IMG/VR virus record: IMGVR_UViG_3300009593_000015
Coordinates: 1-64,000 of that record
Length of the DNA: 64,000 bases
Reading direction: 5' to 3' (one strand)
From: a virus
Shown here: positions 1-35,600 of the stretch, in pieces
Layout: every line of letters begins with the position of its first letter
Position numbering within the stretch: position 1 is the first letter of the stretch
Notes under the pieces: model-generated
What the model saw: the letters and a program-made list of their open reading frames with translations, nothing else
What the model was told of the DNA's origin: nothing
The model's database searches: none
Translations under genes and position numbers: made by a program

Positions 1-162
1 ACTCAGACTATAGATCTGTCTACAGCTAATACAGTGGTTAAGGCAACATTTTCAAATTCTGCCACATTCAGTGCTAATGACGTAATTGGGATATCTGTCA
101 ATCCGACAAACAATCATGGCAGAATAAATATAACAGTTGTTTTTGAATTGCAGCCTTTCTAA
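1..162 (+). CDS. C-terminal end of a virion structural protein (partial)
   Basis: The first 53 codons are open in one frame and end at TAA 160-162; the start lies outside the window. The residues are rich in Thr, Asn, Ser and Val in alternating beta-strand patterns and end in a segment (NHGRINITVVFEL, then QPF) like the C-termini of tail-fibre or head-decoration proteins of marine tailed phages. There are no catalytic motifs. It lies one base before the broken iscA copy. Structural role is inferred from composition and the end motif only. Confidence 0.5.
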   Translation, partial: TQTIDLSTANTVVKATFSNSATFSANDVIGISVNPTNNHGRINITVVFELQPF

Positions 163-163
163 T

Positions 164-265
164 ATGATTACGTTAACTGAATTTGCTGCAAACAAAATTA
201 AAACACTTCTCGCCGAGAAAAAAGAACTTGCGGTTGCGGAGAGAGTTTCTCCATATAAGAACTAA
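164..265 (+). pseudogene. Broken first copy of the iscA/hesB Fe-S carrier gene
   Basis: The ATG and first 21 codons are nearly identical to the intact A-type carrier gene at 1605. The sequence then jumps to what corresponds to the last few codons of that gene. The join falls on the 8-base run AAAAAGAA (219-226), which occurs at both edges of the missing segment in the intact copy (1660-1667 and 1880-1887). About 220 bases are lost, which is not a multiple of three, so the tail is read out of frame: the CGCG cysteines are gone and a 33-residue peptide ends at TAA 263-265. The first conserved cysteine is also lost. It cannot be a working carrier. The leftover could still act as a translated leader for the gene at 274. 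Confidence 0.85.
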
Positions 266-303
266 TTATTATTATGAAGCATAAACTTATAATGGAAAAT
301 TGG
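164..303 (+). repeat. Diverged tandem copy of the iscA-to-leader cassette (partner 1605-1964)
   Basis: Bases 164-226 match 1605-1667 with about two mismatches, and bases 219-303 match 1880-1964 with a handful. The repeat begins at the iscA start codon, runs through its 3' end and the short spacer, and stops after the codons for the shared leader of the next gene (MKHKLIMENW). Beyond that the two downstream genes are unrelated. The repeat therefore joins the same carrier gene and leader to two different proteins. Confidence 0.85.
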
Positions 304-1563
304 CGACGGTTTTTGAAAGAAGCATCAGAAGCTGAAAATCAAGAAATATCACTTAAATTTTACAGAGATCCAACTGACAAAAGAGATTATGACAAGGAAC
401 CATTAACTGATCAAGAGATATCTTTACTTTCTAGTGATACTTTAAATGGCTTAATCGCCCGCAAAGCGTTGTTAATGCACATCTATGTTTACAGTGAGTT
501 GCCAGACATGTCTCCTGCTGTTAATAACATGGTTGTGGACACAGCAGAAGAATATGGAAAAGAAATATCAAAGAGAGCTGAAGAAGTGGATTGGAAACCA
601 GACTTTTCGGACAAAGAAAAAGAAGGCAAGCAAGAGACTCCTCCTCGTGCTGAGTATGTTCCATATCCTGACAATGAACATGGTCAAAATCCAGACTGCT
701 CCAGATTATCCGTCGATCCCTTGTCAGGCAACCCAAGAGACCCCAGTGTTGAATGGACATCTGAGGAATGTAGCGAAGAAGAAATGAGCAGAAATTGTTG
801 GGTCAATCTATTGACTTACAATATATTTCAAAGAAGGTCTGATCCGGTAGATATAGCTTTCACGTTCCTCAATATTAGCAATAGGTCTTACAAGGACGTG
901 TATTATGAAATATTAGACTCCTCAGGTTCTCCTGTTTCATATGAAGACCTATTTGAGCAGATGATGACGGAACAATTTGGAATAGATAAAGAATTTGATG
1001 GTGTTCCTGTCGGACTAATTCGTCACGAAGGCACTTTGGGCTTCCGACGAGTTTGGGAAACTGCGCGCTTCGATTCTCGCAGCGGAGAAAATTATCAGGG
1101 CGACCCCAATATTCATTATTCGTTTTGTCCAATTCCATCCCACTTGCATTCAAGTGAAACAAAACGAAAACTATCGACAGCACAAAAGGGCACAAAGCTA
1201 TTAATACCTTGGAAAGACCCATCTGGAGAGCCATATATGATCAGGTTCACACAAAAACCCAGTCACCCTTCTACTCCCGAACTTCCACCAGTACCAATAA
1301 ACGAATTGGGTAATCAAGGCATCGGTAGCAGAACGCTCGTAAGGGTTCCTACTGATTATTACGCTATAGACGCAGATCTTAGTGGTTTGTCAGATGACCA
1401 GTGGGATGAAATAGAATCATCACAAGAAAAATATATCCAAGCAAAAAAATCACCCTTCGTTGGCTTAAAGGTTGAAGATAGTCAAGTGATTGAGTATGAA
1501 GATTATAGTGAAGACGCTATAAAAGGATTTATGTGGAACTTCATGTTTACTATGCCTAGGTAA
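274..1563 (+). CDS. Unknown 429-residue protein with a capsid-targeting-like leader
   Basis: I do not recognise the body of this protein. It begins MKHKLIMENWRRFLKEA. From the second methionine (ATG 292) the first ten residues, MENWRRFLKE, have an aromatic at 4, Phe at 7, Leu at 8 and Glu at 10, like the T4 internal-protein leader MKTYQEFIAE. T4 leaders are cut by the prohead protease after (L/I)xE, here L-K-E. After an acidic linker to about residue 150 there is a mixed alpha/beta region with several Cys and Trp. There is no signal peptide or membrane segment. Both ATG 274 and ATG 292 are possible starts; no strong ribosome site decides. It follows the broken iscA copy by 8 bases. A role as virion-packaged cargo is inference. 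Confidence 0.6.
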   Translation: MKHKLIMENWRRFLKEASEAENQEISLKFYRDPTDKRDYDKEPLTDQEISLLSSDTLNGLIARKALLMHIYVYSELPDMSPAVNNMVVDTAEEYGKEISKRAEEVDWKPDFSDKEKEGKQETPPRAEYVPYPDNEHGQNPDCSRLSVDPLSGNPRDPSVEWTSEECSEEEMSRNCWVNLLTYNIFQRRSDPVDIAFTFLNISNRSYKDVYYEILDSSGSPVSYEDLFEQMMTEQFGIDKEFDGVPVGLIRHEGTLGFRRVWETARFDSRSGENYQGDPNIHYSFCPIPSHLHSSETKRKLSTAQKGTKLLIPWKDPSGEPYMIRFTQKPSHPSTPELPPVPINELGNQGIGSRTLVRVPTDYYAIDADLSGLSDDQWDEIESSQEKYIQAKKSPFVGLKVEDSQVIEYEDYSEDAIKGFMWNFMFTMPR

Positions 1564-1569
1564 TTATTT

Positions 1570-1598
1570 TTGACATCATCTTATTTGATTGGTATAAT
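1570..1598 (+). promoter_or_regulatory. Consensus sigma70 promoter for iscA
   Basis: TTGACA at 1570-1575 and TATAAT at 1593-1598 are separated by 17 bases: a full consensus match at both hexamers. The expected start of transcription (about 1604-1606) coincides with the iscA ATG at 1605, so the mRNA would be leaderless or nearly so. The promoter lies directly after the stop of the preceding gene and would be read by unmodified host RNA polymerase. Confidence 0.8.
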
Positions 1599-1604
1599 TA
1601 AAGT

Positions 1605-1919
1605 ATGATTACTTTAACCGAATTTGCTGCAAACAAAATTAAAACACTTCTCGCCGAGAAAAAAGAAACTGGAATCCGCGCTGGCGTACAAGGCGGCGGA
1701 TGTTCCGGTTTTACCTATCAATTAAAATTTGACAACCAAAAAGAAGGAGATAAAATAATAGAGAGTAATGGGGTCAATATTTACGTTGACCCTAAAAGTT
1801 ATTTATATCTAATGGGGACTGAAATCCATTTCGTTGATGAATTGAACCAATCTGGTTTTAAGTTTGTGAATCCAAACGCAAAAAGAACTTGTGGTTGCGG
1901 AGAGAGTTTCTCCATATAA
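1605..1919 (+). CDS. iscA: A-type iron-sulfur cluster carrier (IscA/HesB family)
   Basis: This 104-residue protein has the usual length and all three cluster-binding cysteines of the family: Cys33 in GGGCSGF, and Cys96 and Cys98 in the C-terminal CGCG. A-type carriers bind an Fe-S cluster in the cytoplasm and pass it to apo-enzymes. IscA/HesB-like genes are known in marine T4-like phages, where they may support Fe-S proteins of phage or host. The probable nuclease at 12187 carries a four-cysteine cluster pattern and is a possible client. It has its own consensus promoter whose expected start falls on the ATG. A broken second copy lies at 164. IscA, ErpA and SufA cannot be told apart here. Confidence 0.9.
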   Translation: MITLTEFAANKIKTLLAEKKETGIRAGVQGGGCSGFTYQLKFDNQKEGDKIIESNGVNIYVDPKSYLYLMGTEIHFVDELNQSGFKFVNPNAKRTCGCGESFSI

Positions 1920-1934
1920 AAACTAATTACTATT

Positions 1935-2420
1935 GTGAAGCATAAACTTATAATGGAAAATTGGAAAACCTTTCTAGAAAAAGAAGAGAAGAAAACAAAT
2001 ATATATTTTTCTGGAAAATGTACTAGATGTGATCCTGATACAGTTAGGAGCGACTACGATTTTTCCACCTGGGAAGCGACGAATGGTGAACTTATAATAA
2101 AACCACACACAGATAATAAAAAATATGAAGAATATGAAGGAAAACTTAATAAGATAATTGGCTTTTCAGCAGGAGCTACAGCGGCGATAAGGCTAAAGAA
2201 ATTCCACCTAAATGCAACACTGGTCCTTATAGACCCCTGGCTTCCAAGGCTTCCAAGAGATTATATAATACCTCCAGATGTGGAATATTACGGCACTAGT
2301 TGTTTTATCGCCAGAACCCCAAATAAAGAAAGGCTACAGAGATCTAAAAAAGAGTGCAAGCCAAAAGAGACAAAATTCGATCATCATATGAAGTATTTTA
2401 AAGATTATTTTGGTTTATGA
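1935..2420 (+). CDS. Small alpha/beta-hydrolase-like protein with capsid-targeting-like leader
   Basis: The start is GTG at 1935, or ATG at 1953 giving MENWKTFLEKEE. The leader is shared with the protein at 274 at DNA level. The remaining part of this 161-residue protein resembles a short alpha/beta hydrolase: a strand, then G-F-S-A-G at about residues 77-81, fitting a GxSxG nucleophile elbow, then strand LVLIDPWLP with an acidic residue, and a C-terminal His pair (FDHH) that could complete a Ser-Asp-His triad. It is about half the usual length, so it may be a minimal esterase/lipase or a non-catalytic relative; the substrate is unknown. It lies 15 bases after iscA and is probably co-transcribed with it. 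Confidence 0.55.
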   Translation: MKHKLIMENWKTFLEKEEKKTNIYFSGKCTRCDPDTVRSDYDFSTWEATNGELIIKPHTDNKKYEEYEGKLNKIIGFSAGATAAIRLKKFHLNATLVLIDPWLPRLPRDYIIPPDVEYYGTSCFIARTPNKERLQRSKKECKPKETKFDHHMKYFKDYFGL

Positions 2421-2455
2421 TTAAAAATAAGTTTGGAGTTATATAAAATAAAAAA

Positions 2456-3334
2456 ATGTTTCGACCTATTAGAAATCAGAGCCTTAAGCCGCTAATCGGA
2501 AACACGCCATTAATAAAAATCTCATCGCACATATACGCGAAACTAGAGACATACAATCCCGCAGGATCAGTAAAGGACAGGATGGTTTATTATGTAATTG
2601 AACGCGCCCGGATTTTTGGTAGAATAAACGAGAACAGTATTCTGTGTGAAGCAACGAGTGGAAATACTGGAATTTCGCTTTCGATGTTGGCGGCATCAAT
2701 GGGTCTGCAATGTGTTATATTTATGCCAAAAAACATGTCTCAAGAGAGGAAACAAATGATGAGTGTTTATGGTACTAAGATTATAGAAGCACCAGAGAAT
2801 GACTTTATTGGCGCAATTGCAATGAGAGATCAATATTTGTTAGCAAATGAAAATGCATGGTCACCGAAACAGTTCAGTAACCAACACAATATTTTGTGTC
2901 ATCAGACACAGACAGCACCAGAAATACACAAGCAGGCGATAGATACAAGACATAAATGGTCAGCGTTTGTCCACGGTTCCGGCACTGGTGGTACAATTGA
3001 GGGAGTAAGGAGATATATAATGAACAATAATTTAAAAACAAAAATTTGTTTAACGAGACCAGTAGAAGAAAATCATGGAATTCAGGGCATCTCAGACGGA
3101 AAGGATTTCTTATTCAACTCAGATACTGCTGACCGAATTATTGAGGTTTCAACAGAAGCATCGATTTCTCGGGCAAAAGATTTTATAAGAGAAACTGGAA
3201 TTTTGATAGGCATATCCTCAGGTGCAAATATTTTAGCATCCGAAAAATACGTAGAATCCATGAAGCCTGATGGTATAATAATAACAATGTTGTGTGATAG
3301 AGGGGAAAGATACATGTCAATTTACGACAAGTAA
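2456..3334 (+). CDS. cysK: Cysteine synthase (O-acetylserine sulfhydrylase, PLP-dependent)
   Basis: This 292-residue protein carries the diagnostic motifs of the CysK/CysM fold-II PLP family in order: GNTPL near residue 15, the PLP lysine in NPAGSVKDR (Lys40), TSGNTG (67-72) contacting substrate carboxylate, the phosphate-binding GSGTGGT (174-180), and GISSGAN (252-258). It should make L-cysteine from O-acetyl-L-serine and sulfide in the cytoplasm. It is slightly shorter than bacterial CysK (about 310-320). All catalytic motifs are intact, so activity is likely. CysK versus CysM (or a cystathionine beta-synthase-type enzyme) cannot be decided. It is an unusual gene for a phage and sits near an Fe-S carrier, where cysteine is the sulfur donor. 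Confidence 0.88.
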   Translation: MFRPIRNQSLKPLIGNTPLIKISSHIYAKLETYNPAGSVKDRMVYYVIERARIFGRINENSILCEATSGNTGISLSMLAASMGLQCVIFMPKNMSQERKQMMSVYGTKIIEAPENDFIGAIAMRDQYLLANENAWSPKQFSNQHNILCHQTQTAPEIHKQAIDTRHKWSAFVHGSGTGGTIEGVRRYIMNNNLKTKICLTRPVEENHGIQGISDGKDFLFNSDTADRIIEVSTEASISRAKDFIRETGILIGISSGANILASEKYVESMKPDGIIITMLCDRGERYMSIYDK

Positions 3335-3348
3335 AACTAATTAAAAGT

Positions 3349-5658
3349 ATGAAATATCTTAAAATTTTTAAAAAATTTCAAACATTCTTAAATGAACAGG
3401 AAAAAGAAAATTGTTCGGGAGTGGAAAACGTAGCTTGCCGCTGCGTTGACAACAGTCAAACTAATCTATCTATAGAACAGGTTCAGGAGTTTCTTAAAAA
3501 AATATATGGAACTGAAGAAGGTACAGGGTTGTCAATATCTTTTTCTGGAAAATTTGGCCACTCTGGCCCTGGAAACGCAGATGGGGTATGCGGCAAAGAG
3601 ACTAGAAATTTTATAATGAAATTTCAGACCGAAGCCGGCATTTGCGCTGACGCATGCGTCGGAACAGAAACAGAGGCTGCAATGAGAAAAAAAGATCCAA
3701 GTTTTTTTACTAGTCTGCCATCTGGCACTACATCATCCACCTCAACAGTGCCCCGAAGGCCGAGCACGAGCTTAAATTCAACTCAATCTACAAGTCAAGA
3801 CAATAGAAGAGATTCTGAAACCGGTGAAGGCCCCCTCTCAGCAACGCCCTCGATAATTGCTTCCTCTGGTGTCACAATATCCATCAAGGCCGCCAATCCA
3901 ACCCCTGGTGGTTATATTTCAGCAGGCCTTGGCAAAAATCACCATGGATATCAAGGAAAATTTGTAAAACCTAAGATATCAACAGACGACGCAGGTATGA
4001 TTAATGCCGTTAATTTTCAGGGCCCATTGAATTCTGCGAAGGGTATTACCGCTCAATCTCACAGAAAAAACACACAATGGGGAAACCCTGTTTTACTTTC
4101 TTTGCTTATAGCCGCATCTGCCCATGTTGTTAATTACGTAGTAAATAAGAAAGAGTCTTTCAAGACGTCGGATTCTATTGAACTTTGGAATGTTTCGAAA
4201 AAACACGGCGGGCCCCTATACAAGCACGCCGGTCACCAATCTGGGTTGGAGTGTGATATAGGCTTCTACAAAAAAAATGGAAGACCTGATATAGAAAGAA
4301 ATGCTGTTTTTTTAGAGTTCCTGTTAAGTCAAGAAGCTGTTGAATCTGTGCTACTCGACAAAACATCAGGTCCTGTTTCTGTTTCAAAGATGAGAGCATG
4401 GATTACGGCTAACAACTTGAAGGAAAAATTTCCAAAAGTCATGAATTCTAATAATAATTCCAAGCCACAATTAGCACCTGCTTCACCGGGTTCCCACGAC
4501 GATCATTATCACATAAGATGCCACTTTCCAGATGGTTCACCGTCAATGTCTGATTATACAAGAGATGAGAAGCTCGCGCAAAAATCAAATCAAATGCCCG
4601 GCGCACCAGTTTCTGCCAGAGGCGGCCCAAGAAAAGTTAAGATAAATGTCCAAAAGACCAAGAGGTACGGTTTCACAAAAAGATATCATTCCCTTCGGGA
4701 CAAAACAATAGACGAAATTATTAAACAATACGGACTCTCATTCTCTTTTACTTTCGGTGTGATAGACGGGGATAACGGCATGCCACAAATCTTAGAACAT
4801 CACAATCAAGAGTCTCCATTTACTGGGGCATCGATGCCTAAAACAATGGCAGCATTAGCACACTTGATAACATATAGTCCTAAGAATCCTGAAAATAAAA
4901 ATAATAAAAATTACAGCCCAGATAGTCAAATCAACGACTGTGAAGTAAAAGCTCTGTTAACTTATTGGAGTCGCGAAAGTGAAAAAAGAAATATCCCGCA
5001 AGGAGAAAAGTGTAAAAAATTTCATGATTCAAATTACACATTATCAGCCATCTCTGGTACTGACAGACGACGTAAAAAGCGCCGACGCAAATACGGATTC
5101 AGAAATAAACTTGGAGTGCTAAGTAAAAAGCAGATCAGAAAAGTTTCAGAAAAGTTTGGAATAACAAAAAAAAGTACTTTCACTTTCGGCGCAAATCACC
5201 AGACCAGCAAAGACATGTTTTTATTCTTCGCCGGTTTAGCCAGGATGGATCAAGAAAAACTATCAAAAATTGACCCTCTTTATACTCTTTACCATGGTGA
5301 TGCCTCAATCGGTGAACCCTCTTATAAAGAAGAGGTAAAGAGTTTAATAGCCATTCAAAAAATGAGAACATACTCAAGAAAAATGACATCCTCAGGTGCA
5401 ATGAGCATTAAGGGTTATAAGTCTTGGGGTAAAGGGGGATTAAGCAACGGGTCAGTCAATTTTGCATGGGTGGTAAGAGGTAGAGACGGCAGAACTTATG
5501 TGCTGTCGGTTTATTCTCTCTTAAAGTGGGAATACCCACTTCCGAAATCAGCATCTCAACAGGAGAAAGCAGATAGAGCAGCAAGGATATATAAAAATAA
5601 TTCTCATGGCTACGATCTAGTAAATGCAGTTTTATATAAATTAATGGAGAAAACATAA
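3349..5658 (+). CDS. Three-part murein enzyme: PG-binding domain, MepA-type endopeptidase, SxxK serine-hydrolase domain
   Basis: The protein has 769 residues. The N-terminus MKYLKIFKKFQTFLNEQE has a leader-like aromatic-x-x-FLxE and no signal peptide. Residues 40-117 fit a peptidoglycan-binding repeat (helix, DGVCGKETRNFIMKFQ, VGTETEAAM). A Ser/Thr/Pro linker follows (120-170). Residues 180-400 match penicillin-insensitive murein endopeptidase (M74, MepA): HAGHQSGLECD gives His296 and Asp303 in the MepA spacing, and HDDHYH gives His383, His386 and His388, the zinc and catalytic set. From about 440 to the end the chain has SMPK (Ser495-Lys498), a possible SxN-like site near 560, and KGG (695-697), the order of motifs in beta-lactamase/DD-carboxypeptidase folds. 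It should cut peptide cross-links in murein; the serine domain could trim D-Ala or be binding only. Its stop overlaps the next start (TAATG). Confidence 0.8.
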   Translation: MKYLKIFKKFQTFLNEQEKENCSGVENVACRCVDNSQTNLSIEQVQEFLKKIYGTEEGTGLSISFSGKFGHSGPGNADGVCGKETRNFIMKFQTEAGICADACVGTETEAAMRKKDPSFFTSLPSGTTSSTSTVPRRPSTSLNSTQSTSQDNRRDSETGEGPLSATPSIIASSGVTISIKAANPTPGGYISAGLGKNHHGYQGKFVKPKISTDDAGMINAVNFQGPLNSAKGITAQSHRKNTQWGNPVLLSLLIAASAHVVNYVVNKKESFKTSDSIELWNVSKKHGGPLYKHAGHQSGLECDIGFYKKNGRPDIERNAVFLEFLLSQEAVESVLLDKTSGPVSVSKMRAWITANNLKEKFPKVMNSNNNSKPQLAPASPGSHDDHYHIRCHFPDGSPSMSDYTRDEKLAQKSNQMPGAPVSARGGPRKVKINVQKTKRYGFTKRYHSLRDKTIDEIIKQYGLSFSFTFGVIDGDNGMPQILEHHNQESPFTGASMPKTMAALAHLITYSPKNPENKNNKNYSPDSQINDCEVKALLTYWSRESEKRNIPQGEKCKKFHDSNYTLSAISGTDRRRKKRRRKYGFRNKLGVLSKKQIRKVSEKFGITKKSTFTFGANHQTSKDMFLFFAGLARMDQEKLSKIDPLYTLYHGDASIGEPSYKEEVKSLIAIQKMRTYSRKMTSSGAMSIKGYKSWGKGGLSNGSVNFAWVVRGRDGRTYVLSVYSLLKWEYPLPKSASQQEKADRAARIYKNNSHGYDLVNAVLYKLMEKT

Positions 5659-6155
5659 TGAAGAAAGTTAGAATAAAAATAGTCGAATCAAATACATGCG
5701 ACCCATGTTCCGCCTCTGGAAAGTACCCAGCAGAAAACCCAGCATCTCCGGATTCTACAATGGACAAACACATGCACACTAGTGATTGTGAAAAGCCCCC
5801 TGTTGATTATAAAAATGCTACAAATGGCCAAGAGTCCAGAATGCACAGAACCACATTGGCTCATCTTGTGGCAGACGTAAAAGTATTGCTCGACCTAGTA
5901 AAAGACGAAGATGATCTTCCGGAGTGGCTTGAAACTAAAATAACGAAAGCGGGAGATTATATGTCTAGTGCTGCAAGATATGTAGCGGGGAATATTGCAA
6001 GAGATCAAGGACAGCTCGAAGAACAAGCTATCAAAATAACAGCCGACGTTGTAAAAGGTTTGATCGACAATTTGGAAGTATCGGCTTTAAACCAAGAAGC
6101 GCTTTCTAGTTTGTACGCTGCTTTAAGTGGATTATCTAGTACACAAACTTCTTGA
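5658..6155 (+). CDS. Small phage protein with a helical motif common in marine phages
   Basis: This 165-residue protein starts inside the stop of the murein enzyme (TAATG), so the two are translationally coupled. The N-terminus MKKVRIKIVES ends in I-V-E, a possible prohead-protease site. A Cys-rich stretch (CDPCSASG) follows. At about residues 79-110 is the acidic-then-amphipathic segment DDLPEWLETKITKAGDYMSS, a motif that recurs in small proteins of marine T4-like phages; its function is not established. The C-terminal half is predicted helical and could form a coiled coil. There is no signal peptide or membrane span. It might be another packaged protein or a partner of the murein enzyme; both are guesses. 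Confidence 0.6.
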   Translation: MKKVRIKIVESNTCDPCSASGKYPAENPASPDSTMDKHMHTSDCEKPPVDYKNATNGQESRMHRTTLAHLVADVKVLLDLVKDEDDLPEWLETKITKAGDYMSSAARYVAGNIARDQGQLEEQAIKITADVVKGLIDNLEVSALNQEALSSLYAALSGLSSTQTS

Positions 6156-6182
6156 CATTTTGTTAATCTTGTGATATAAATA
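6152..6182 (+). promoter_or_regulatory. Sigma70-type promoter for tilS, also a TATAAATA late-type box
   Basis: TTGACA (6152-6157) overlaps the TGA stop of the preceding gene. After 17 bases follows TATAAA (6175-6180), extending to TATAAATA, the T4 late-promoter consensus read with gp55-type sigma. The tilS ATG at 6190 lies only about 10 bases beyond the -10 box, so the transcript would have almost no leader. It could work early with host sigma70 and again late with the phage sigma encoded at 23819. Confidence 0.65.
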
Positions 6183-6189
6183 AAATATC

Positions 6190-6792
6190 ATGATTAGAAT
6201 TATTGGAAAAATACCCCCGAATGTTGTTATAGCCTGTTCGGGTGGAGTTGACAGCATGGTAGTGACACACTTTCTCCTACAGGGAAGGAGAAATGTTAAG
6301 TTAGCCTTCTTTAATCACGACACTCTACACAGTAAGCATGCCCAAAGATTCGTTGAAGAATTTGCGCAAGAAAAAAAACTTGATTTGTTTATTGGGGGCA
6401 TAAAAGGGGTGAAAGGTAAAAGGTCAATAGAAGAGTTTTGGAGAGACGAGCGATACAATTTTTTTAATAGGATATCTGCGGATTTTTTAATTACATGTCA
6501 TCATCTTGATGATGGAGTAGAAACGTGGATAATGTCGGCAATGCACGGCCGCTGTAAACTTATACCATACCAAAGAGGTAAAAATATATTTCGGCCCTTT
6601 TTGATGACTTCAAAGAAGACAATTAAGCAATACGCCGAAAATAAAAAATTAGATTGGGTAGAGGACCCGACAAATGCAAGGACAGAATATATTAGAAACC
6701 ACATTAGGCATACTATGATGCCAAACGTACTAAAGGTAAACCCAGGTATAAGAACTATGATAAGGAAAAAATTAATTGAAAGTTATTTATAA
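6190..6792 (+). CDS. tilS: tRNA(Ile)-lysidine synthase, minimal N-terminal form
   Basis: This 200-residue N-type ATP pyrophosphatase has the PP-loop SGGVDS (residues 17-22), the TilS signature HHLDDGVET (near 104-112), and the family-specific DPTNARTEYIRNHIRH followed by a VNPG segment. TilS converts C34 of tRNA-Ile2 (anticodon CAU) to lysidine so that it reads AUA and is charged with Ile. The protein consists of the catalytic domain alone; bacterial TilS proteins are commonly 300-450 residues with C-terminal domains that help bind tRNA. A matching CAU tRNA gene lies 634 bases downstream. Ten of the 19 Ile codons in tilS itself are ATA and none is ATC, in line with a need for AUA decoding. 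It is driven by the promoter at 6152. Confidence 0.9.
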   Translation: MIRIIGKIPPNVVIACSGGVDSMVVTHFLLQGRRNVKLAFFNHDTLHSKHAQRFVEEFAQEKKLDLFIGGIKGVKGKRSIEEFWRDERYNFFNRISADFLITCHHLDDGVETWIMSAMHGRCKLIPYQRGKNIFRPFLMTSKKTIKQYAENKKLDWVEDPTNARTEYIRNHIRHTMMPNVLKVNPGIRTMIRKKLIESYL

Positions 6793-6818
6793 TATAAGTA
6801 ATTTTATTTATTAGAAAA

Positions 6819-7373
6819 ATGTTACAAATTTTATTATTATCAAGCAGCTTCCTTTTAATGAACCCACTAGGGGTCTCTTGGAACAAAAAATATACAAATT
6901 ATCCACAAATAAGCGATTACAAGTATTATTATGGTAGTGTGCCATGGGGGCAAGTGGTATATATTGGAAAAGAAGACATATTGGGCATGGAGTCGGAGAT
7001 ACATTTATTATTTAGTAAGAAAAATTTATCAAAAGCCACGTTAATCCTTGGCCCCATTGGTATCAATGAATGGAATTGTCTGAGTAAATATGTAAAAGTA
7101 AGAAAAATACTAATTCGCAAATATGGAAAATTTAACTTTGTAAAAGAAATAAAAGATCCAGTGATAAAGGATTTGATAACCTCAAGCGCTTGTTATCCAA
7201 TATCTATCGGTCTACGAGAAATAGAAACACACTGGGAGACCAAAGACTACAGGATAAAACTTTCCTTGTTTGGTGAAGATAGGGACTTTTTTATAGAAAT
7301 AGATTATATGCATAAAAATAATAATTTACATCGACTAGAAAGTCAAAAAGATAAAATTATTAAAAAGTTTTAA
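6819..7373 (+). CDS. Probable secreted or membrane-anchored protein of unknown function
   Basis: The 184-residue protein starts with a hydrophobic stretch (LQILLLSSSFLLMNPLGV) that fits a signal peptide or anchor, though it has no basic residue before the core. The rest is an alpha/beta mix rich in Lys, Tyr and Ile with two Cys (about 89 and 126) and no motif I recognise. It lies 26 bases after tilS and upstream of the tRNA. If exported it would act in the periplasm or outer membrane, perhaps in host takeover or superinfection exclusion, but nothing in the sequence shows this. Confidence 0.55.
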   Translation: MLQILLLSSSFLLMNPLGVSWNKKYTNYPQISDYKYYYGSVPWGQVVYIGKEDILGMESEIHLLFSKKNLSKATLILGPIGINEWNCLSKYVKVRKILIRKYGKFNFVKEIKDPVIKDLITSSACYPISIGLREIETHWETKDYRIKLSLFGEDRDFFIEIDYMHKNNNLHRLESQKDKIIKKF

Positions 7374-7402
7374 TTGAAAAGTCGAATGACTTGTGATATT
7401 GT
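7374..7402 (+). promoter_or_regulatory. Possible promoter for the tRNA gene
   Basis: TTGAAA (7374-7379) and TATTGT (7397-7402) are 17 bases apart, five and four matches to the sigma70 consensus. The expected start, near 7409, is about 17 bases before the tRNA. The -35 box overlaps the end of the preceding gene, as at other promoters here. The surrounding bases are very AT-rich, so chance matches are likely. Confidence 0.35.
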
Positions 7403-7425
7403 AATATATATTACATGATATAAGA

Positions 7426-7499
7426 GGGCCTATAGCTCAATAGGTTAGAGCAGCGGTCTCATAAACCGCCGGTTCCTGGTTCGAACCCAGGTAGGCCCA
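7426..7499 (+). tRNA. tRNA with anticodon CAU, probably tRNA-Ile2 (AUA-reading)
   Basis: A full cloverleaf folds: acceptor GGGCCTA (7426-7432) with TAGGCCC (7492-7498), D arm GCTC/GAGC, anticodon arm GCGGT-CTCATAA-ACCGC, variable loop CGGTT, T arm CCTGG-TTCGAAC-CCAGG, discriminator A7499. CCA is not encoded. A CAU anticodon fits elongator Met, initiator Met or Ile2. The first acceptor pair is a proper G-C, so it is not a standard initiator. Pairs C4-G69 and C5-G68 are those known to mark tRNA-Ile2 for E. coli TilS, where elongator Met has U-A and A-U, and the anticodon loop CTCATAA equals that of E. coli tRNA-Ile2. With tilS next door, Ile2 is the best call. Confidence 0.9.
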
Positions 7500-7525
7500 C
7501 TATAGTTTTAAAAAGGAGTATAATT

Positions 7526-7702
7526 ATGATTGTAGAAAAACTAAAATCTATTCTAGATAGTCTTTGCGAAGCAGAGGAAGATGCTATTAAAAGCGAAGTT
7601 GGTAACAGCGCCGCCGGCCGCCGAGTGCGAAAACAGGCCATGGAAGCAATAAAAGCTTTAAAAGAATTGCGCGCCCTGATTTTGGAGGAATCTAAAAAAT
7701 GA
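7526..7702 (+). CDS. Small basic helical protein of the GRRVRK type
   Basis: This 58-residue ORF begins at ATG 7526 behind a good AGGAG (7514-7518) and ends at TGA 7700-7702, overlapping the ATG of the ClpP gene (ATGA). It is helical: an acidic N-terminal helix, then a basic SAAGRRVRKQAMEAIKALK helix rich in Ala, Lys and Arg. Similar short proteins with an AGRRVRK core occur in marine phages and are sometimes annotated histone H1-like. DNA binding is plausible from charge but unproven. It begins 27 bases after the tRNA and is probably on the same transcript. Confidence 0.8.
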   Translation: MIVEKLKSILDSLCEAEEDAIKSEVGNSAAGRRVRKQAMEAIKALKELRALILEESKK

Positions 7703-8337
7703 GAGATCAGTTTTGGGGCTCTGTCGAAGAGAAAGAAACTAGTGATCCAATTACTGTGGCACAATCATGTCAAGAAACACTTGGACATGCTTCTACAGAT
7801 TTCAATGTTGTAGATACTAGTCATAATAGAATATTTTTCTATTCAGGGGTAACTAGGCCAAAAATACTTCAATTAAATAAAAATATTTTTAACCTGAATG
7901 TTAATATGCTTTCCAAAACCGGCCCTCTGGAATATGAACCTCCTCCTATTAAGCTTCACATTAATAGTTACGGAGGTTCTGTGTTTGCAGGTTTGTCGGC
8001 ACTAGATTATATAAAAAATTCTAAAGTACCGGTGCATACAATTATAGATGGATGCGCCGCCTCAGCCGCTACTTTAATGTCATGTGTTGGCGCCCATCGC
8101 CAAATGCATAGAAATTCTTTCATGCTAGTCCATCAACTATCCGGCGCCATGTGGGGAAAATTCCAAGAAATGGAAGATGATTTTGAAAACTCAAAGATGC
8201 TTATGAATAAAATAAAAAACATCTACAGCGAGCATACAAAAATACCGAAGAGAGAAATGGATAAAATCTTAAAACATGATTTGTGGTGGGAAGCTGAAAA
8301 GTGTCTACAGTACGGATTAATAGACGAAATTATATAA
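7699..8337 (+). CDS. clpP: ClpP-like serine protease
   Basis: The 212-residue protein has the ClpP fold signature: INSYGGSVFAGL (substrate-binding GG), the nucleophile Ser122 in CAASAATLM, catalytic His145 in FMLVHQ, and Asp194 in KHDLWW before the C-terminal EYGL(V/I)D-like strand (QYGLIDEI). It is likely to form barrel-shaped peptidases with a Clp ATPase, here the host's because no ClpX/A is in the window. ClpP genes are known in cyanophages. The N-terminal 40 residues differ from bacterial ClpP and may replace the usual propeptide. It is translationally coupled to the small gene upstream. A head-maturation protease of the S14 type is an alternative, but the gene is far from capsid genes. 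Confidence 0.87.
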   Translation: MRDQFWGSVEEKETSDPITVAQSCQETLGHASTDFNVVDTSHNRIFFYSGVTRPKILQLNKNIFNLNVNMLSKTGPLEYEPPPIKLHINSYGGSVFAGLSALDYIKNSKVPVHTIIDGCAASAATLMSCVGAHRQMHRNSFMLVHQLSGAMWGKFQEMEDDFENSKMLMNKIKNIYSEHTKIPKREMDKILKHDLWWEAEKCLQYGLIDEII

Positions 8338-26659: not shown

Positions 26660-29600
26660 ATGTCAGATATAGAACAAGTTTACAAATTAGAAATTAGAGA
26701 CACTGATCAAGATAGTATAACTTTTACCCCAAGAATTTTTGGAGAAGTTGGTAAAGATATAGTCGCTATTAAGTTATCGTTAGGTACTCTTGTTGATATT
26801 GCTGGGGTCATCAGTCAGGGCCCCAACGCGTCTTCAGATCGCACTCAACCCTTGGACCCAAATGGGTGGTTTGATTGTACAACTGGGCAGCAAGTGTCAA
26901 TTGAGCAGGCTGCAACTTTTGATTCTAAGATGCAAACTGCATTAACTAATTTTCAATTGAAAAATCAGTTCTTAATTATCTCTTACCTGTTCAGTAAATA
27001 TGCGGTACCTGGGATTGTAAATTCAGTAGGAGAGAATTATAATTCTAATTCAGAGCAGGATCAGGCGAGATACTTGGCAACGGCGTTATCCCAGCTTGAG
27101 TCGGTCGATCTATTATTTGAATCTGAAATAGGAAATTTGGGAGAAGCCACAATTGCAGTTATGCACGGTTGGGTACCGCATACTAGCGCCGCCAATACAA
27201 ATTATTACCACACAGGAGCGCTGCTGGATAGCCTCAATACCGACGCATCAACGATTGTTGATATTGTTCCTTATGAAATTCTTCGTCTCCTTGCAGAAGG
27301 TCACATGGGTCAAACCATTGAGGACTTGCAAAACGCCGGCCTCATAAGGGAGTTCTCACACGAACCTCTATCGTATTCAAGTCGGTACCTTGAGGATTAT
27401 CTTAAATCTGTCCCTGAGGCATCAAGGTGGCTCGGTTCTGATGGTATACCAAACTTCGAATATGGTTATGTAATATATAACACAATCAACGATCAGGAGA
27501 ATAGTAGCCTTTATAATTCAACCATAATAACAATAAAAAACTACAAAGGAAAAAGTCTTGACGAAAGAGTCGTGTCGCAAGAGGAGAAATTAGGGAGACT
27601 AAGAAGGGTTTTTTACCCAGATCCATTTTCAACGGAAGATCCATTTTATATAAGCCAGAATATAACTGGGCTCTATTTCGAAACAGATTTCATATTAGAT
27701 TCCCAAGGTCCATTGCCAACAATGGAGGAAGAGGTGATAAAACAAATAGAGGAATCCGCTTTAGATCACATGTTAACTTTGACAAATAAGCCTCGTTTGT
27801 GGTTTTTGTCCACTGGTGATGATTCAACAATGAAGATATGGTTTGGAGAAGACGAAAAAATCATGCCATCACATAACGGGCAGTTTCCTGAATTTTCCAA
27901 CCGGAGCTCCGACCAGATAAAAAGACAAATTCCTAAATTTTCAGAAATATGGGAAAAAATAGAAGACATAAAAAAAGATTTAAACCTACTTCCAGAGACA
28001 GCTTTCGGTGCTGCTAATGACTACATCCAAGCACGACGAGAAGTGCTTTTAAATAATTTAGAATCTCTAGAAAACGATTTCGCACAAGAGCCGACACTAG
28101 AAGAAAAAAAACAAAGCTTTATTGTTTTAGGTACACAGGAATCAATTTTTGAAAATACCTCACCTGAATCAGAAGGTCTAGACCCTCCAATTGCTGCGAA
28201 CTGGAGAATTCTCGAAGGCTTCGGATCAGAACCACCTCTTGTAAGATTCATAGAATACAAGACGCCAACTTTACGTCCAGGTCAAAGATACCGAGCTATG
28301 TTAGAATTCAGCACTCGAAAATTAGATTCTATTGTTTCGGGGGTATTGCCAGTAGCAGAACAGCCAGAAGAACCAGGCCCGCCCGATGCAGATGGTGAAG
28401 ACCTTTGTATTACGGGCAACACAGACGAAACCCTGAGAACTCTAGAAGAATATAGAGTCCACGCTAGAAAAAAGAGAAGAGAAGTAGTAAGACAACTTAG
28501 GGAAGAATTCAAACAAGAGCCAGCTCTCCGAGGGTCTAACAACATTACTCGTGGGCAAATTGGTCCCTTCGATTTAAACCGAGCCCTAAACCAATTAATG
28601 GGATTTGACATTAATGGAGCATCAGACTATGAATATACGAAAGGGGTATTATCTCGACTCGGCGACGTCGGCGCAGCGGCCATGGAAAAACTAGGCATGC
28701 TCGATACCGATATAGATTATTTTAACAGTATTGCAAATGATACGAACAAAGAATTAGCGAAAAAAGATGCTAAAGGAAAGCCTCAAAAAAACGTAATAAG
28801 AATAACCCTAGAAGAATTAGAAGAAAGAACTAACACAATAGTAAAAGATTTACAGGAGTCTAGTGAGATCGTTTCATCGGAAGGTATTGCTTTTAAAAAG
28901 GGTAGTTCGTTCAACGCATCAAAAGAATCTGGATTAGTAAAACAGTTTTACACGCAGATGAAGGACCTAGTTCTCAACGCTGCAGCTGAGCGTTATGGTG
29001 CCGGCGTCGCGCACGCCATGTCTGTGAACCCTGATAAAGCGCTCGTGATGTTAGAGTTCCAAACGACCACTTCTAAGGGTCCAAATCCGCACATGGGCCC
29101 TGATTTTGGAAAGAAAATTATATCCTTTGGAATTGCACTACCGGAAAAATTTAAAATAAAAGGAAAACTATGGCCCTACGCATATAGACCATCGGACAAG
29201 GTCCCCGGTGGAGCAATTATGCCAAATTTTCTCAAAAAAGGATCCGCAACACCAGAAAAAATAAAGCTTTATCGTGGTAAAATTAAAAACTCAAAATCAC
29301 TCGGGCGCGCCCGAACAGTTAATTATATTAGTAATATATACGAAATGACAGGCCTGTTAACAGATAAGCCAAATGAGATAATATCAGTTTTTGATGATGG
29401 CAGGGGAAGTTGTAAAGATTTGGGGATTAATTTAGATAAAAAATTAGCCTCTTCTTATGTGGCTAACTTCACAACAGGAGTGCAAGTTGAACACCCACCT
29501 GGCGCCCCAAGTGGTTTTTCTTGGAAAAAGTTTGGAAAAGACAATTTTGTAGATCCTGCTAAAGACTGGGCAAAGACCAGCGCCAAAAACTGGGAAAATT

Positions 29601-32600
29601 CTTGGAATGATACATTCGATGAACAAGAGGCTCTACAGATGCTTGGAGATATGTGTACTTTAGAAGATTTGTATAGAGAATTTTTCGATAAACTTGACTT
29701 AGTGTCGCTTCTTTGTGACTGGCTGAAATGTATCAGGTTACCTAATTTTAATTTAAAGCTTCCTAGTTTTTACCTACCTCCACTTCCAAGTATTCCAATA
29801 CTGGGTTTGTATGGTGCCATGATTAAATTTTTTATGGAAAATTTAAAACAAATATTGATTAGAATAATCTGTACATTTGTCAGGACGATCATTGATAAGC
29901 TTGCTATACCATTTTGTGAGGAACAGCTGCGAGAATTCATGGCTGCCGGCTCGCTTAGTGGGTCTCCAATAATGGATGAGGCTCTAGCTGAAGCGCTCTT
30001 GAATACTGGCGTGCCAAAAGAAAAAACAGAACAAGCAAAGACATTTTTTGATGACGTAGCTAGTATAACAACTGGGCAAGAATTGTGCCACCTTTTGACT
30101 GGAAAATCACTAGACGCCGCGACCATGAAAATGATACAAAGACTGTTGGAGAAAAACGACCTTCAAAATGATCTGGACACTCAAGAATCGCTGATGAATT
30201 ATTTTGACCTTCTCGGAACTTTCCTTCCAGATGGTTTGTGTGAGGAGTTGCAAAATTCAACATCACTGCCGGTACCCAAGGATTGTTTAGAAATATCCGG
30301 ATACCTGCACAGTATCAGAAATCGACTTCAAACTGGTGACGGCTCGCTAAGCGACGAAGAAATAGAAGAAGTGCTCCAAATGGCGAAGGAAGAGATGAAC
30401 AATCGAAAAGCCGACTTGGAGGCACTTTCTGGAAACAACATTGGAAGCTTGCTTCCTGAAACTTATGCTCCTGGTAACCCAGATGCTATCATCTCGTCTT
30501 ATCCTGACTTCTTAAAAGAGCGTATCGATCAAACTGCAAAAGACTCTTTTACTGCGGCAAGAATGGATTATATTAATGCAATGGATAGTTATATTCCATC
30601 CCTCTCTATTGCAGCACCAGCGACTCCGCGCGCCGGTACGGACCGCTATAATGATATTCAAAATTTAGAATTCGAAGCAGCAACAGCACAACTTGCTCTC
30701 TATAGTCAGGGAGTACACTCTAGTAGAGTATTCGCCCAAAGAAACACTTTATCAAAACTGGGCCTCCCACCAGAAACAACAGCAGAAGAATTAGAGGAAA
30801 TAAGAGACAAAGGTCTTATACTTCACGATTTGGCTAAATCTTTAAAATCTTGGATAACAAGAAGTCAAAACATCTCTTCTGCGTACTCGCGAGAAAACGG
30901 GGGCCCCTCTCTAGGGTATATACGCGGATCCTTGACCCGGTCTCATCGATCCAATTTTGTCCCGGCCATGGGCCCAGACTTTCATCAACATATAGAATTC
31001 TTGGACAAAATCTTGTTAACGAGTACTGACGGTACCCGTGATGGAAACACGATGTACACTCATGACGTCGGTAGTAGACAAGACCCAAACCCGTTCTTTG
31101 GAGATGAAAATGAAGAAATAAGAGAGAAGATAACTAATCTTGTAAATGCCTTAAGGGTACAATTCAATTCCGGCGCAGCCGCCGATCTGTACGGCGCGGG
31201 ATGGGGATCATCTGCCTTGGAATGGCTAGATTTCCGCTTTAACCTCCATAGCGGCGACGCCGCACTCTTTGCGCATCAAGGGTCGGGTATTCCCGACCCT
31301 CTCGGTCAACCAGGCGCTTGGTCTCAGTTAGGAATAGAACCTTTTGATCTTACCCTCGAACAGCTTTCTTTTATTTATGTTTTAACTACGCCCAAATCTG
31401 ATCCGACTTATTATTCTCAAGGCACCCGGACGGAACTTGGAAGGCACATGGAGAACACATTCGAAAACCTTTTTTATATTGAGAAAGGTTACGTGGGGGG
31501 TATTCTCGGCGAGTTCGATCCCTTCGACGAGCTTATAACTAGGTTCGCAGCCATTGAAACACTCAAAGTAGAGCTTGGTGAGAAATTATATTACGCAAAT
31601 TGGAAAAACGAACACACCGGTTCAAGATATTCTGACCGAAACTCCACCGCAGTGGTCGACCGAGAGCCCGGTTGGCTTGGTCAATTTAAATGGACTGACG
31701 ATGGTACCAATTGGTGGAACCCCTTCCTCGAAAACATGAGACAGTATAGGTCCATTAATCTAGAGGATACTATTGAAGTAATGAGAATGCTTTTGAAAGA
31801 GTATATAAGTAAAACAGGGTATTTTCCTGATGAAGTTGTGGACTTAGGGAAAGATATTTCATACGAAGACTTTCTCACTGAAATGCGCAATCAATGGGGT
31901 TCAACTTACTCTGCCAATTCCAATATCCTGGACCAATATTGCTGGGGCGCCGACGGTTTCTCGAAAAACACTCTTGCCGGCAAGCCGGATAAACTTTGGA
32001 CAAGCGCCTGGGCAGTTTATGACAAGTTTCGAGGTAGATATTTCGATGGCGACGACAGACGCGCCCGGAATAAAGCCGATAAGCTCTGGCTCTGGAATCC
32101 AAATATCGATAGTGAAGATGGAAACTACACGGAAGAGCAGTTCGTGGACAACTGGATCGGCGCCGCGCTGAAAACAGAAGAAATGGGTATTGAGTGGAAT
32201 CATGAGTTAAGGTCTCTTAAAGTCTTGGATGCTATAATACACCTCACTGATCCGATTCGAGATCCTTATTCTGCCGCAATACGATCTATGGATGAAATCG
32301 GCGGGGTGTCTTGGTATAATACTTTATTGCTTTTTTCTGTATTTGAGACAGAATCTGTACCTTTTGATGATGACCGTGATAAAACTCACAAAGTCTTTAA
32401 AAGAGCAAAATTACCAAACAGAAGAAGAGAAGACCAAAGAGAGGAATGGAACCCCTACAAACCTTTTGTAAGTTACTACAGAAGGATCCCTTCAGAAGGG
32501 ACAGTACACGATTATGTTCAAGGTGATAGATCCTTTCAGTATGTTTCTGTTGGTTCGTTAGATGTGCCGACGTTCATCCAAAAGGGGGCAGTATATGATA

Positions 32601-35600
32601 ATGTTTTTAATAAAATCATAGATACGGATCCCTACCCTATAGAAACTTCCTATGCGCCGTACAGAGTGTTTCACGAATCTTTCAATGACCCGCTTGATAA
32701 ATCTGAATACGCCATGATTGTACCAGCTTTTGTCTCAAGCGCTGAATTGACGTCAGACTTTATGGTGGAAAAGTTTATAACAGAGTTATCTACAACATCC
32801 GCCGCGCGCATCTCCGCTGCGTACGACGCGTCGATAACCACCGTTGGCGAAGTCGTGGATTTTTTCTCCGGTGGCCAGGTAAGAGACCAAATTAACAGGC
32901 GTAAACGCGCCGCGATACGTAGGAGCAACGCCCGGATCAGGAGTCAACAAGAGAATCTCAGAGATACTATAGAAGCTCAGCAAGCCTTTGCTGTCGTCGC
33001 AATTGATCAAACCGAGGCTTTCCTACGCGCCAAATACCTTCGAGATTATCCGAGTAATCACCCCGAACGACTGGCTAGGGATGGAAAATGGACTGGTTCG
33101 GATAACACATCAACGCATGCTGTGGAAATTTTTGAGAATCTACAGATAATCATCGAGAGGAATGCAACCTTGAATCCAGACGAGGATTACCTTGGAGATT
33201 TATTAATTAATGTCATGGGCGCCCTGAGTGACATCATTAGAAATGAACCACATAGGGCTTATGGGGCTCTTAGGACCATGGCCTCCGGAGAGGCCGGCCT
33301 TTACAAGGTTATGGACCCTGTAATTGACGAAGATGAAATGGTTCCGATATTTCCAATTAGTATGCAAGATGCATCCATAGAACCCACAAAATGGATGCAA
33401 CATTCATACAATACCTTAAGCGCAATGGCGCTTGCCGTTCACGGAGGGGTCCCAGACTTCTTTGAACACGAGGTCAATCAGCCACTCCGCGATGCAGAAA
33501 AAGAGGTTTTGACCAATGAAGAATTGATGGCCAGATTCGTAGATTGGAGATTGCAAGGAAAAACCGCGGCAAAAACAATAAGTCAAATATGCACCAGCCT
33601 CTCAAACAGTGTTAATAATCCAAATTTAATAAAATTCACCACAGATAGAGTGAAATACCTTTCAGATATTGTGACAAGGGGAATAGAATATCGTCCCAAC
33701 TTTGTAACAGAAAGACACCTTCTGATGTTGGACAAGGTTCTCAGAGATACACCTGTTTTCAGCGCAGATAGAAATAAGATCAATCTGGGAGTTCAATTTG
33801 GTCAATATCAACCTCAAGTTTCTATGGAGGAAATCCCTGCAGAAAAACAATTTGATAGGTATACTGTAACGGTAAAAAGTGATTTTCACTTGAGGATGTC
33901 AAACCAAAACATTCAACCAAAAAGTTTTCAAATGTGTGAGTTTCTCCCGCCAAGCCTTATAAATAATAATGGAACAGATAGAGGAGAAGGTCGCGAGCAT
34001 CCCTGGGATCCTTCTTCTGTAAGATATTTTTCGAAAAGAGAAGCCTTCTCTGAATTGGGCGCTGCAGCCCTGCGCTCAGCTGGAGTAAATGGCAATATCA
34101 GCCATATAAAAGATCTGCTATATGAGGATGCATACATAAATATTCGAGACTCTATTTTTTCTAGTTTCTCATCGATGATATCTGAATCTAAACTTTTCGA
34201 CCTAGAATATGCACAAAACATAGACGCACGACTCTCCGCGGATCCGATATATCAAGAAGAGTGTGTCAAGAACAGGTATGGTCTAGTTGAGTCAGCTGTG
34301 CTTTCATATAATAAGACAATCATTAATACTGCCTATGACGAAATAATGAAAGAGATGTCCGATCCTAAAAACTCACCTTTTAACAGGGATTTCGACGACC
34401 CACATCCACTAGAACTAGCCCTCCAATCAATATCTTTAAAAGCTTTCGTTAGAATTTGTCTTATAGACACTCTTTTCAAAGGAGGTTTAGCCTATTCAAT
34501 ATGGGACATAGAACCGATAGTTTCAGAACAAATATTCAAAGATTATGTTTATGAACACGTTTTTAGAGAACTTACATCGTCACGATTCTTCGCATCAAAG
34601 TGGAAGCAAATAATTGAAAGAACGGTTGGAATAACAAACCCAACAGCCGCGCTGAAAAAACTATTAGAATTGGAAATGGTTAAACTTCCAGACTATTCCA
34701 AGCAGGTTTTCAACTTTTCCGCAGAAGATAAAGAAAAAGATTATTACAATTGGATAACATCTCATTCAGAAACTATACCGTTTAAAAAATTATATTTTAC
34801 AGCCAACATTAATTATGATAATACTTCATGGCGAATTGCCAACCTTCCGGAAAGTAATACGGCCCGGGCATTTGCCGAAAGCTTAGGCGAAGACGTTGAC
34901 TTTATGAGCATACATCTATCGGAGCTACCTCCTGGTGACGGTCTCATCGTAGAAAATTATATACGACTTTCTGGTGAAATCGTAGAAAAAGCCAATGACA
35001 TTTGGAAAAAGATGTTTTCTCAAATAGGAGATGACCCCGGAGCGCGCCACCAGATATACGAAGTCTGCAAGGAGCGCCGCACCCGCGAAGGCGGCAGAAC
35101 TGGTACCAGTCACGTCGATCCCCAATTCGCGAATGATAGGGGCCTGTTACCAACAGGCGCCTTGTTAGATTGGTGCAACGACACCCACTTGCGGTCCGTC
35201 GGCTTCGGGCCCGCTAATCTCTCCACCCGGGTTGATGTGCCAGAAACTTACCAAATAAGAGAAGGTGACTCTTTAGTGGTGTCTCCTTATGATTTTGATA
35301 TGTATTTGGCTTTCTTATGTTATTGTTTGACTAGGCCCGAATTTGAAAATTTGATAAATAATTCAACTATTCACCATGGCTCAAGAATTTCGGTAACAAC
35401 AAGGAATCAGCAAATAGTAGATCAGTTAACTCTGGCTCCAGACATTAGAAGAAAAAGTTTTTTGGAGAAATCTTTTCTTTTTGTCGTGCGATCCAGCGGA
35501 GCCGACGATGAAGATCGCGCCATTGAACTACCAGAATGGCAAATTGCCAAGCTACCTTTGGCAAATTATGAACACGAGCTAAGATTAGAAGATTGTGGAT

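Follow-up and report, generated by a model that had tools for sequence, protein, structure and literature searches.

A short phage TilS and a nearby tRNA-Ile2(CAU) form a probable AUA-decoding cassette in a marine myophage and its relatives

A marine myophage with a portal and terminase of the T4 type probably carries a two-gene cassette for AUA decoding, composed of a TilS enzyme and the phage's own tRNA-Ile2(CAU). The stretch of DNA analyzed here, referred to as the window, comprises 64,000 of the 78,250 bases of the linear IMG/VR fragment IMGVR_UViG_3300009593_000015 (Table 1). An earlier note on this DNA had proposed that the phage supplies both the tRNA and the modifying enzyme for AUA, and this is supported by the conserved linkage of the two genes, the class of the tRNA, the intact catalytic residues of an enzyme with the TilS fold, and the enrichment of AUA codons. 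The pair would be a clear case of a phage that provides a tRNA, makes it useful by modification, and has a codon use that fits.

Table 1. Features of the tilS-tRNA locus, in window positions.
Feature	Coordinates	Strand	Basis or remark
Sigma-70-like promoter TTGACA-N17-TATAAA	6152..6180	+	9 nt 5' of tilS ATG; sequence
tilS, 200 aa, ATG start, N-terminal PP-loop domain alone	6190..6792	+	TIGR02432, PF01171, AF2, Foldseek
Strand + PP-loop, residues 12-22, ending in SGGVDS (17-22)	6223..6255	+	Invariant in 56 aligned phage TilS
184-aa ORF (family F23), function unassigned, between tilS and tRNA	6819..7373	+	Homologues in L016, L017, L018
16-nt perfect palindrome TGTAATATATATTACA	7400..7415	.	Sequence; just 5' of tRNA
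tRNA-Ile2(CAU), positions 1-73 (A73)	7426..7499	+	ARAGORN (7426-7500), nearest bacterial tRNAs, compensatory changes
ClpP-like protease, outside the pair, first gene of conserved downstream block	7699..8337	+	Profile matches, gene order

Elsewhere the window holds two very large ORFs, of 3320 aa (26660-36622) and 2437 aa (42810-50123), the latter with no Pfam match above its cut-off. A single ORF of 1032 aa that begins inside the window (L002:3212-6310; record positions 63212-66310) matches an SbcD-like family over residues 1-362 and an SbcC-like family over residues 292-1030 and is an apparent fusion of the two subunits.

The gene at 6190-6792 encodes a catalytic-domain homologue of TilS, for which lysidine synthesis is predicted from the sequence. 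The description of the product as a minimal TilS was confirmed. The 200-aa protein has the PP-loop motif SGGxDS and scored 129.9 bits (E = 1e-37) against TIGR02432 (lysidine_TilS_N), above the cut-off of 93.6; it also matched PF01171 (E = 1.4e-36), while a PHROGs search gave no TilS family match. When its AlphaFold2 model (pLDDT 96, pTM 0.90) was compared with the PDB in Foldseek, the best matches were structures of Aquifex aeolicus TilS (2e21/1wy5), among them its complexes with AMPPNP and with ATP and lysine (2e21, 2e89). The TM-score of the predicted structure was 0.83 when normalized to the query and about 0.54 when normalized to the target, which is longer. With phmmer, the protein aligned to residues 26-223 of A. 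aeolicus TilS (1wy5), which constitute the catalytic domain. Residues R113, D137, E140, and R205 of the A. aeolicus enzyme, which we take from the structural literature on TilS to be functionally important catalytic residues, correspond to R88, D108, E111, and R173 of the window protein. These four residues are invariant in 56 aligned phage TilS, as are S17, G18, G19, D21, and S22.

The C-terminal domains are missing, as had been claimed: coverage is limited to the catalytic domain, and the alignment stops at A. aeolicus residue 223, with neither the CTD1 of types I and II nor the CTD2 of type I present. A search of seven tilS phage records, two of them 190 kb long and three others 288-642 kb, detected neither of the C-terminal TilS families PF11734 and PF09179. 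All 139 complete viral TilS ORFs encode 190-236 aa. Of the 80 nearest bacterial relatives, 78 have a complete ORF, and in 66 of these it encodes 400-500 aa. The viral TilS form a single group separate from the bacteria in the TilS tree (SH-aLRT 98). TilS matches labeled as Acinetobacter "phage" were set aside; they adjoin rho and polA and look like bacterial contamination. The known TilS types reach the tRNA through one or two C-terminal domains (PMC12514573), and the phage enzyme is therefore a form outside types I and II. These domains are thought to let TilS tell tRNA-Ile2 from tRNA-Met, and a large group of phages manages without them, so the CTD-free phage TilS offers a minimal system for asking how lysidine specificity arises. 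The absence of CTD1 and CTD2, which make the tRNA contacts of the known types, also counts against the proposed cassette.

ARAGORN found one tRNA in the 64-kb window, at 7426-7500 (+), with anticodon CAT and the label Met; a tRNA search of the last 18 kb of the record found none. The expected CAU tRNA is thus present after tilS, at a distance of 633 nt (634 in the earlier note). Judged by its sequence, the tRNA(CAU) at 7426-7499 is intact and belongs to the Ile2 class. Reference CAU tRNAs from seven bacterial genomes and E. coli were sorted into fMet, eMet, and Ile2 types. The identity of the window tRNA was 0.81 to Ile2 (of Marinimicrobia and Flavobacterium), 0.76 to Ile-GAU, and 0.73 to eMet. 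In addition to CAU, it has five of the six features of the Ile-type identity set (A73, C4-G69, U12-A23, A37, and A38); the sixth, C29-G41, is G-C in the window tRNA and C-G in some clade members. It is very improbable that this is an elongator tRNA-Met and that TilS has its target elsewhere. The ARAGORN label and the CTCATAA loop, which is common to elongator tRNA-Met, would agree with such an identity, but the higher identity to both isoleucine tRNAs and the five Ile features speak against it, and position 4 is G, A, or U in the sampled bacterial eMet tRNAs.

The pairs C4-G69 and C5-G68 and the loop CTCATAA had been put forward as matching tRNA-Ile2 and not elongator tRNA-Met. All three are present, but the loop cannot discriminate because the elongator tRNA-Met of E. 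coli has it too; the acceptor stem does discriminate. The same two pairs had been described as features that TilS needs. E. coli TilS, which belongs to type I and touches the acceptor stem with its CTD2 (PMC12514573), does use them as determinants, but they cannot work in the same way here because the window TilS has no CTD. The acceptor pairs also vary among the tilS-linked phage tRNAs, with U5-G68 in L012 and U4-A69 in L080. Being variable and read by an absent domain, they were dropped as deciding evidence.

Among 18 tRNAs of the set, 96.8% of cells were paired, and both partners had changed in eight pairs of the acceptor, anticodon, and T arms (55 cells with such two-sided change versus 17.8 in shuffles), indicating that the fold is under selection. 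The 3' CCA is not encoded in the window tRNA but is encoded in about half of its relatives. In L068 (10884-10956), the tRNA is near-identical to the clade tRNAs, yet TilS identity to the window protein is only 44%; this likeness may reflect tRNA transfer or convergence.

An alignment-driven scan of IMG/VR yielded 448 contigs with a TilS relative, whereas a protein-only scan of viral contigs for TilS gave no match. All 24 nearest viral relatives (TilS 60-73% identical) have an Ile2-class CAU tRNA 26-31 nt past the tilS match, with no other tRNA in any of the 24 fetched loci. When 13 clade contigs (76-191 kb) were searched whole, the CAU tRNA was behind tilS in every one, and the only two extra CAU-pattern matches (G007 and G023) were not tRNA-like. 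The block 3' of the tRNA (ClpP-like, F1, trypsin-like, and PhoH) is conserved in the clade, while the genes 5' of tilS differ in nearly every phage. The F23 ORF, for which a Pfam search gave no match at E ≤ 0.1, follows the tRNA in L016-L018 and lies between tilS and the tRNA in the window. The wider gap of the window is therefore most simply explained by a local rearrangement that swapped this order. The hypervariable gene block (window 1-6190; L009-L032) stops exactly at tilS, which may mark an insertion hot spot.

It is unlikely that the linkage is inherited hitchhiking within one syntenic block, with no functional coupling of the two genes. The conserved downstream block means that a single ancestral event covers all 24 relatives; however, the genes upstream turn over, families F23, F27, F36, and F38 enter after the tRNA, a gene separates tilS from the tRNA only in the window, and the adjacency recurs in other TilS lineages. 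In those lineages, CAU tRNAs account for 9 of the 18 tRNAs within 300 nt of tilS versus 9 of 236 farther off (Fisher P = 1.7e-7, with tRNAs counted regardless of relatedness). Parsimony requires at least seven switches between adjoining and non-adjoining states on the TilS tree, although only one is forced by the starred branches alone. Two loci, L042 and L080, hold several CAU tRNAs, the tilS-adjoining copies being 30 and 74 nt downstream, respectively. In L080, the adjoining copy is the Ile2-like one and not an fMet- or eMet-like one. In L042, it is neither the fMet-like nor the other copy; its Ile2 and eMet identities are tied at 0.78, and it is putatively assigned to Ile2 because its anticodon arm is similar to the one in E. 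coli tRNA-Ile2. In L064 (+61 nt) and L098 (+68 nt), the position of the CAU tRNA after tilS is taken by a tRNA-Ser with anticodon ACT (A34).

That the two genes adjoin so strictly in a clade this divergent, and that they do so repeatedly elsewhere, points to a role in which they act together in this lineage. It is nevertheless a serious possibility, though not one we favor, that the phage TilS mainly acts on the host tRNA-Ile2 and that the phage tRNA, as an independent addition, could be modified by host TilS. T4-like phages carry tRNA-Ile2 and depend on host TilS in this way (PMC1524935), and lysidine has been found on a vibriophage tRNA(CAU), according to a review (PMC13191261). Two tilS phages, G010 (249 kb) and G014 (139 kb), have no CAU tRNA in the sequence searched, and many others have none adjoining tilS, which counts against the cassette; such phages may modify the host tRNA-Ile2. 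Action on host tRNA does not account for the repeated adjacency as readily, and it is compatible with the cassette reading. In part of the phage TilS group, enzyme and presumed substrate travel together.

A promoter site with at least 10 of 12 matches was found within 60 nt 5' of tilS in 11 of 25 clade members (null, 2%). The tilS promoters of the clade usually end 6 nt before the ATG, compared with 9 nt in the window. In about ten genomes (L009-L012, L016-L020, and the window), a strong sigma-70-like promoter stands 6-9 nt before the tilS ATG, and the tilS message is consequently predicted to be leaderless or nearly so. In relatives with the 26- to 31-nt gap, the tilS promoter would read into the tRNA, so that the two would be co-transcribed.

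The promoters also bear on the host, for which the Bacteroidota are a doubtful candidate. The nearest terminase is that of Flavobacterium phage immuto (45%), and many Flavobacteriia are among the nearest bacterial TilS. However, Bacteroidota have their own promoter type and make weak use of SD sequences, whereas the phage has TTGACA/TATAAT promoters and SD-like sites 5' of 15 of 36 genes (null, 10%), which argues against such a host. Phage immuto itself encodes, by annotation, a 104-aa putative TiaS (tRNA-Ile2 C34 agmatinyltransferase; L300:12262-12576, MW353175.1).

The isoleucine codons of tilS are 10 ATA, 9 ATT, and 0 ATC, exactly as first counted. AUA makes up 0.50 of the isoleucine codons in the window and 0.48 over 78 kb. 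The ATA count over all phage genes, proposed earlier as a check, was above the expectation from base composition, estimated from fourfold sites as A/(A+C+T); the observed/expected ratios were 1.17 in the window and 1.14 over 78 kb. The clade median of this ratio is 1.10 versus 0.63 in tilS phages without an adjoining CAU tRNA (MWU P = 2e-12, with genomes taken as independent of phylogeny). Comparison values are 0.57 for T4, 0.68 for phage immuto, and 0.46-0.87 for sampled bacterial genomes. The contrast between phage and host is direct for Pseudomonas jumbo phage MIJ3 only, which uses 39.6 AUA per 1000 codons (32 annotated genes), compared with 0.9 per 1000 in P. aeruginosa and none in its highly expressed genes (PMC12514573). 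For adjoining pairs outside the clade the median ratio is 0.69, so AUA enrichment goes with this clade and not with adjacency itself; that most other adjoining lineages are not enriched weighs against the cassette.

In the proposed mechanism, the tRNA would be transcribed with anticodon CAU, and the phage TilS would use ATP and lysine to convert C34 to lysidine, switching the tRNA from a methionine acceptor that reads AUG to an isoleucine acceptor that reads AUA. This is the reaction known for TilS (PMC11938285); that the phage enzyme performs it, that the phage tRNA is its substrate, and that the phage benefits are predictions. TilS is slow in vitro, at 0.03-4 per minute (PMC12514573), so an added tRNA without added enzyme could remain unmodified, and co-supply would solve this. 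Enzyme and substrate together would raise AUA decoding where the slow TilS and scarce tRNA-Ile2 of the host serve few AUA codons, and the co-supplied TilS would keep surplus CAU tRNA from staying unmodified and charged with methionine. Specialization of the enzyme for the phage tRNA is plausible. More tentatively, and with more doubt than confidence, the phage enzymes may be a third TilS class, made up of the catalytic domain only, for which the anticodon arm is the sole point of tRNA recognition. Enzymes of this class would have evolved together with a tRNA dedicated to them and transcribed with them, and the resulting near-orthogonal pair would free AUA decoding in the phage from dependence on the host.

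Phage tRNAs that counter anticodon nucleases are an established theme. The cassette could accordingly be a counter-defense and not a codon adaptation, replacing tRNA-Ile2 or lysidine lost in infection through host tRNA cleavage or anti-phage tRNases, in keeping with the hypervariable block that tilS borders. We consider it improbable, since no defense or counter-defense gene was noticed alongside in a non-systematic inspection, and since decoding explains the AUA enrichment directly.

Phage TilS and phage tRNA-Ile2 have each been reported before; within the open-license PubMed Central literature, the conserved pair and the CTD-free class are the new part, as no description was found there of a conserved tilS-tRNA-Ile2 unit, of its link to AUA, or of a CTD-free class. 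TilS has been reported in Pseudomonas jumbo phages MIJ3/PA5oct (PMC6892783) and in pelagimyophage group A (PMC7029224); the passages on it in these two papers do not tie it to a phage tRNA, AUA usage, or domain loss. The MIJ3 TilS (203 aa, 39% identical to that of the window) belongs to the same phage TilS group, but its gene lies about 7-10 kb from the two CAU tRNAs of that phage, which are like E. coli tRNA-Ile2 in the anticodon arm, whereas the window pair is separated by far less. The TilS of phage RsoM2USA, whose best match is Rickettsiella (PMC8504454), is also virus-encoded but, at 349 aa, longer than the short form. Bacterial TilS, both type I (E. coli and Geobacillus) and type II (Aquifex and M. 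smegmatis), share the PP-loop domain, catalytic residues, and fold with the phage enzyme but are mostly about twice its length, the phage form being the catalytic domain alone. The giant-virus TilS (Dasosvirus) is likewise virus-encoded but has 696 aa and is not of the short form. We know of no phage TilS in T4-like phages. A tRNA-Ile2(CAU) has long been reported in them (PMC1524935), so that they resemble the window in encoding an AUA-decoding tRNA, but they use the host enzyme.
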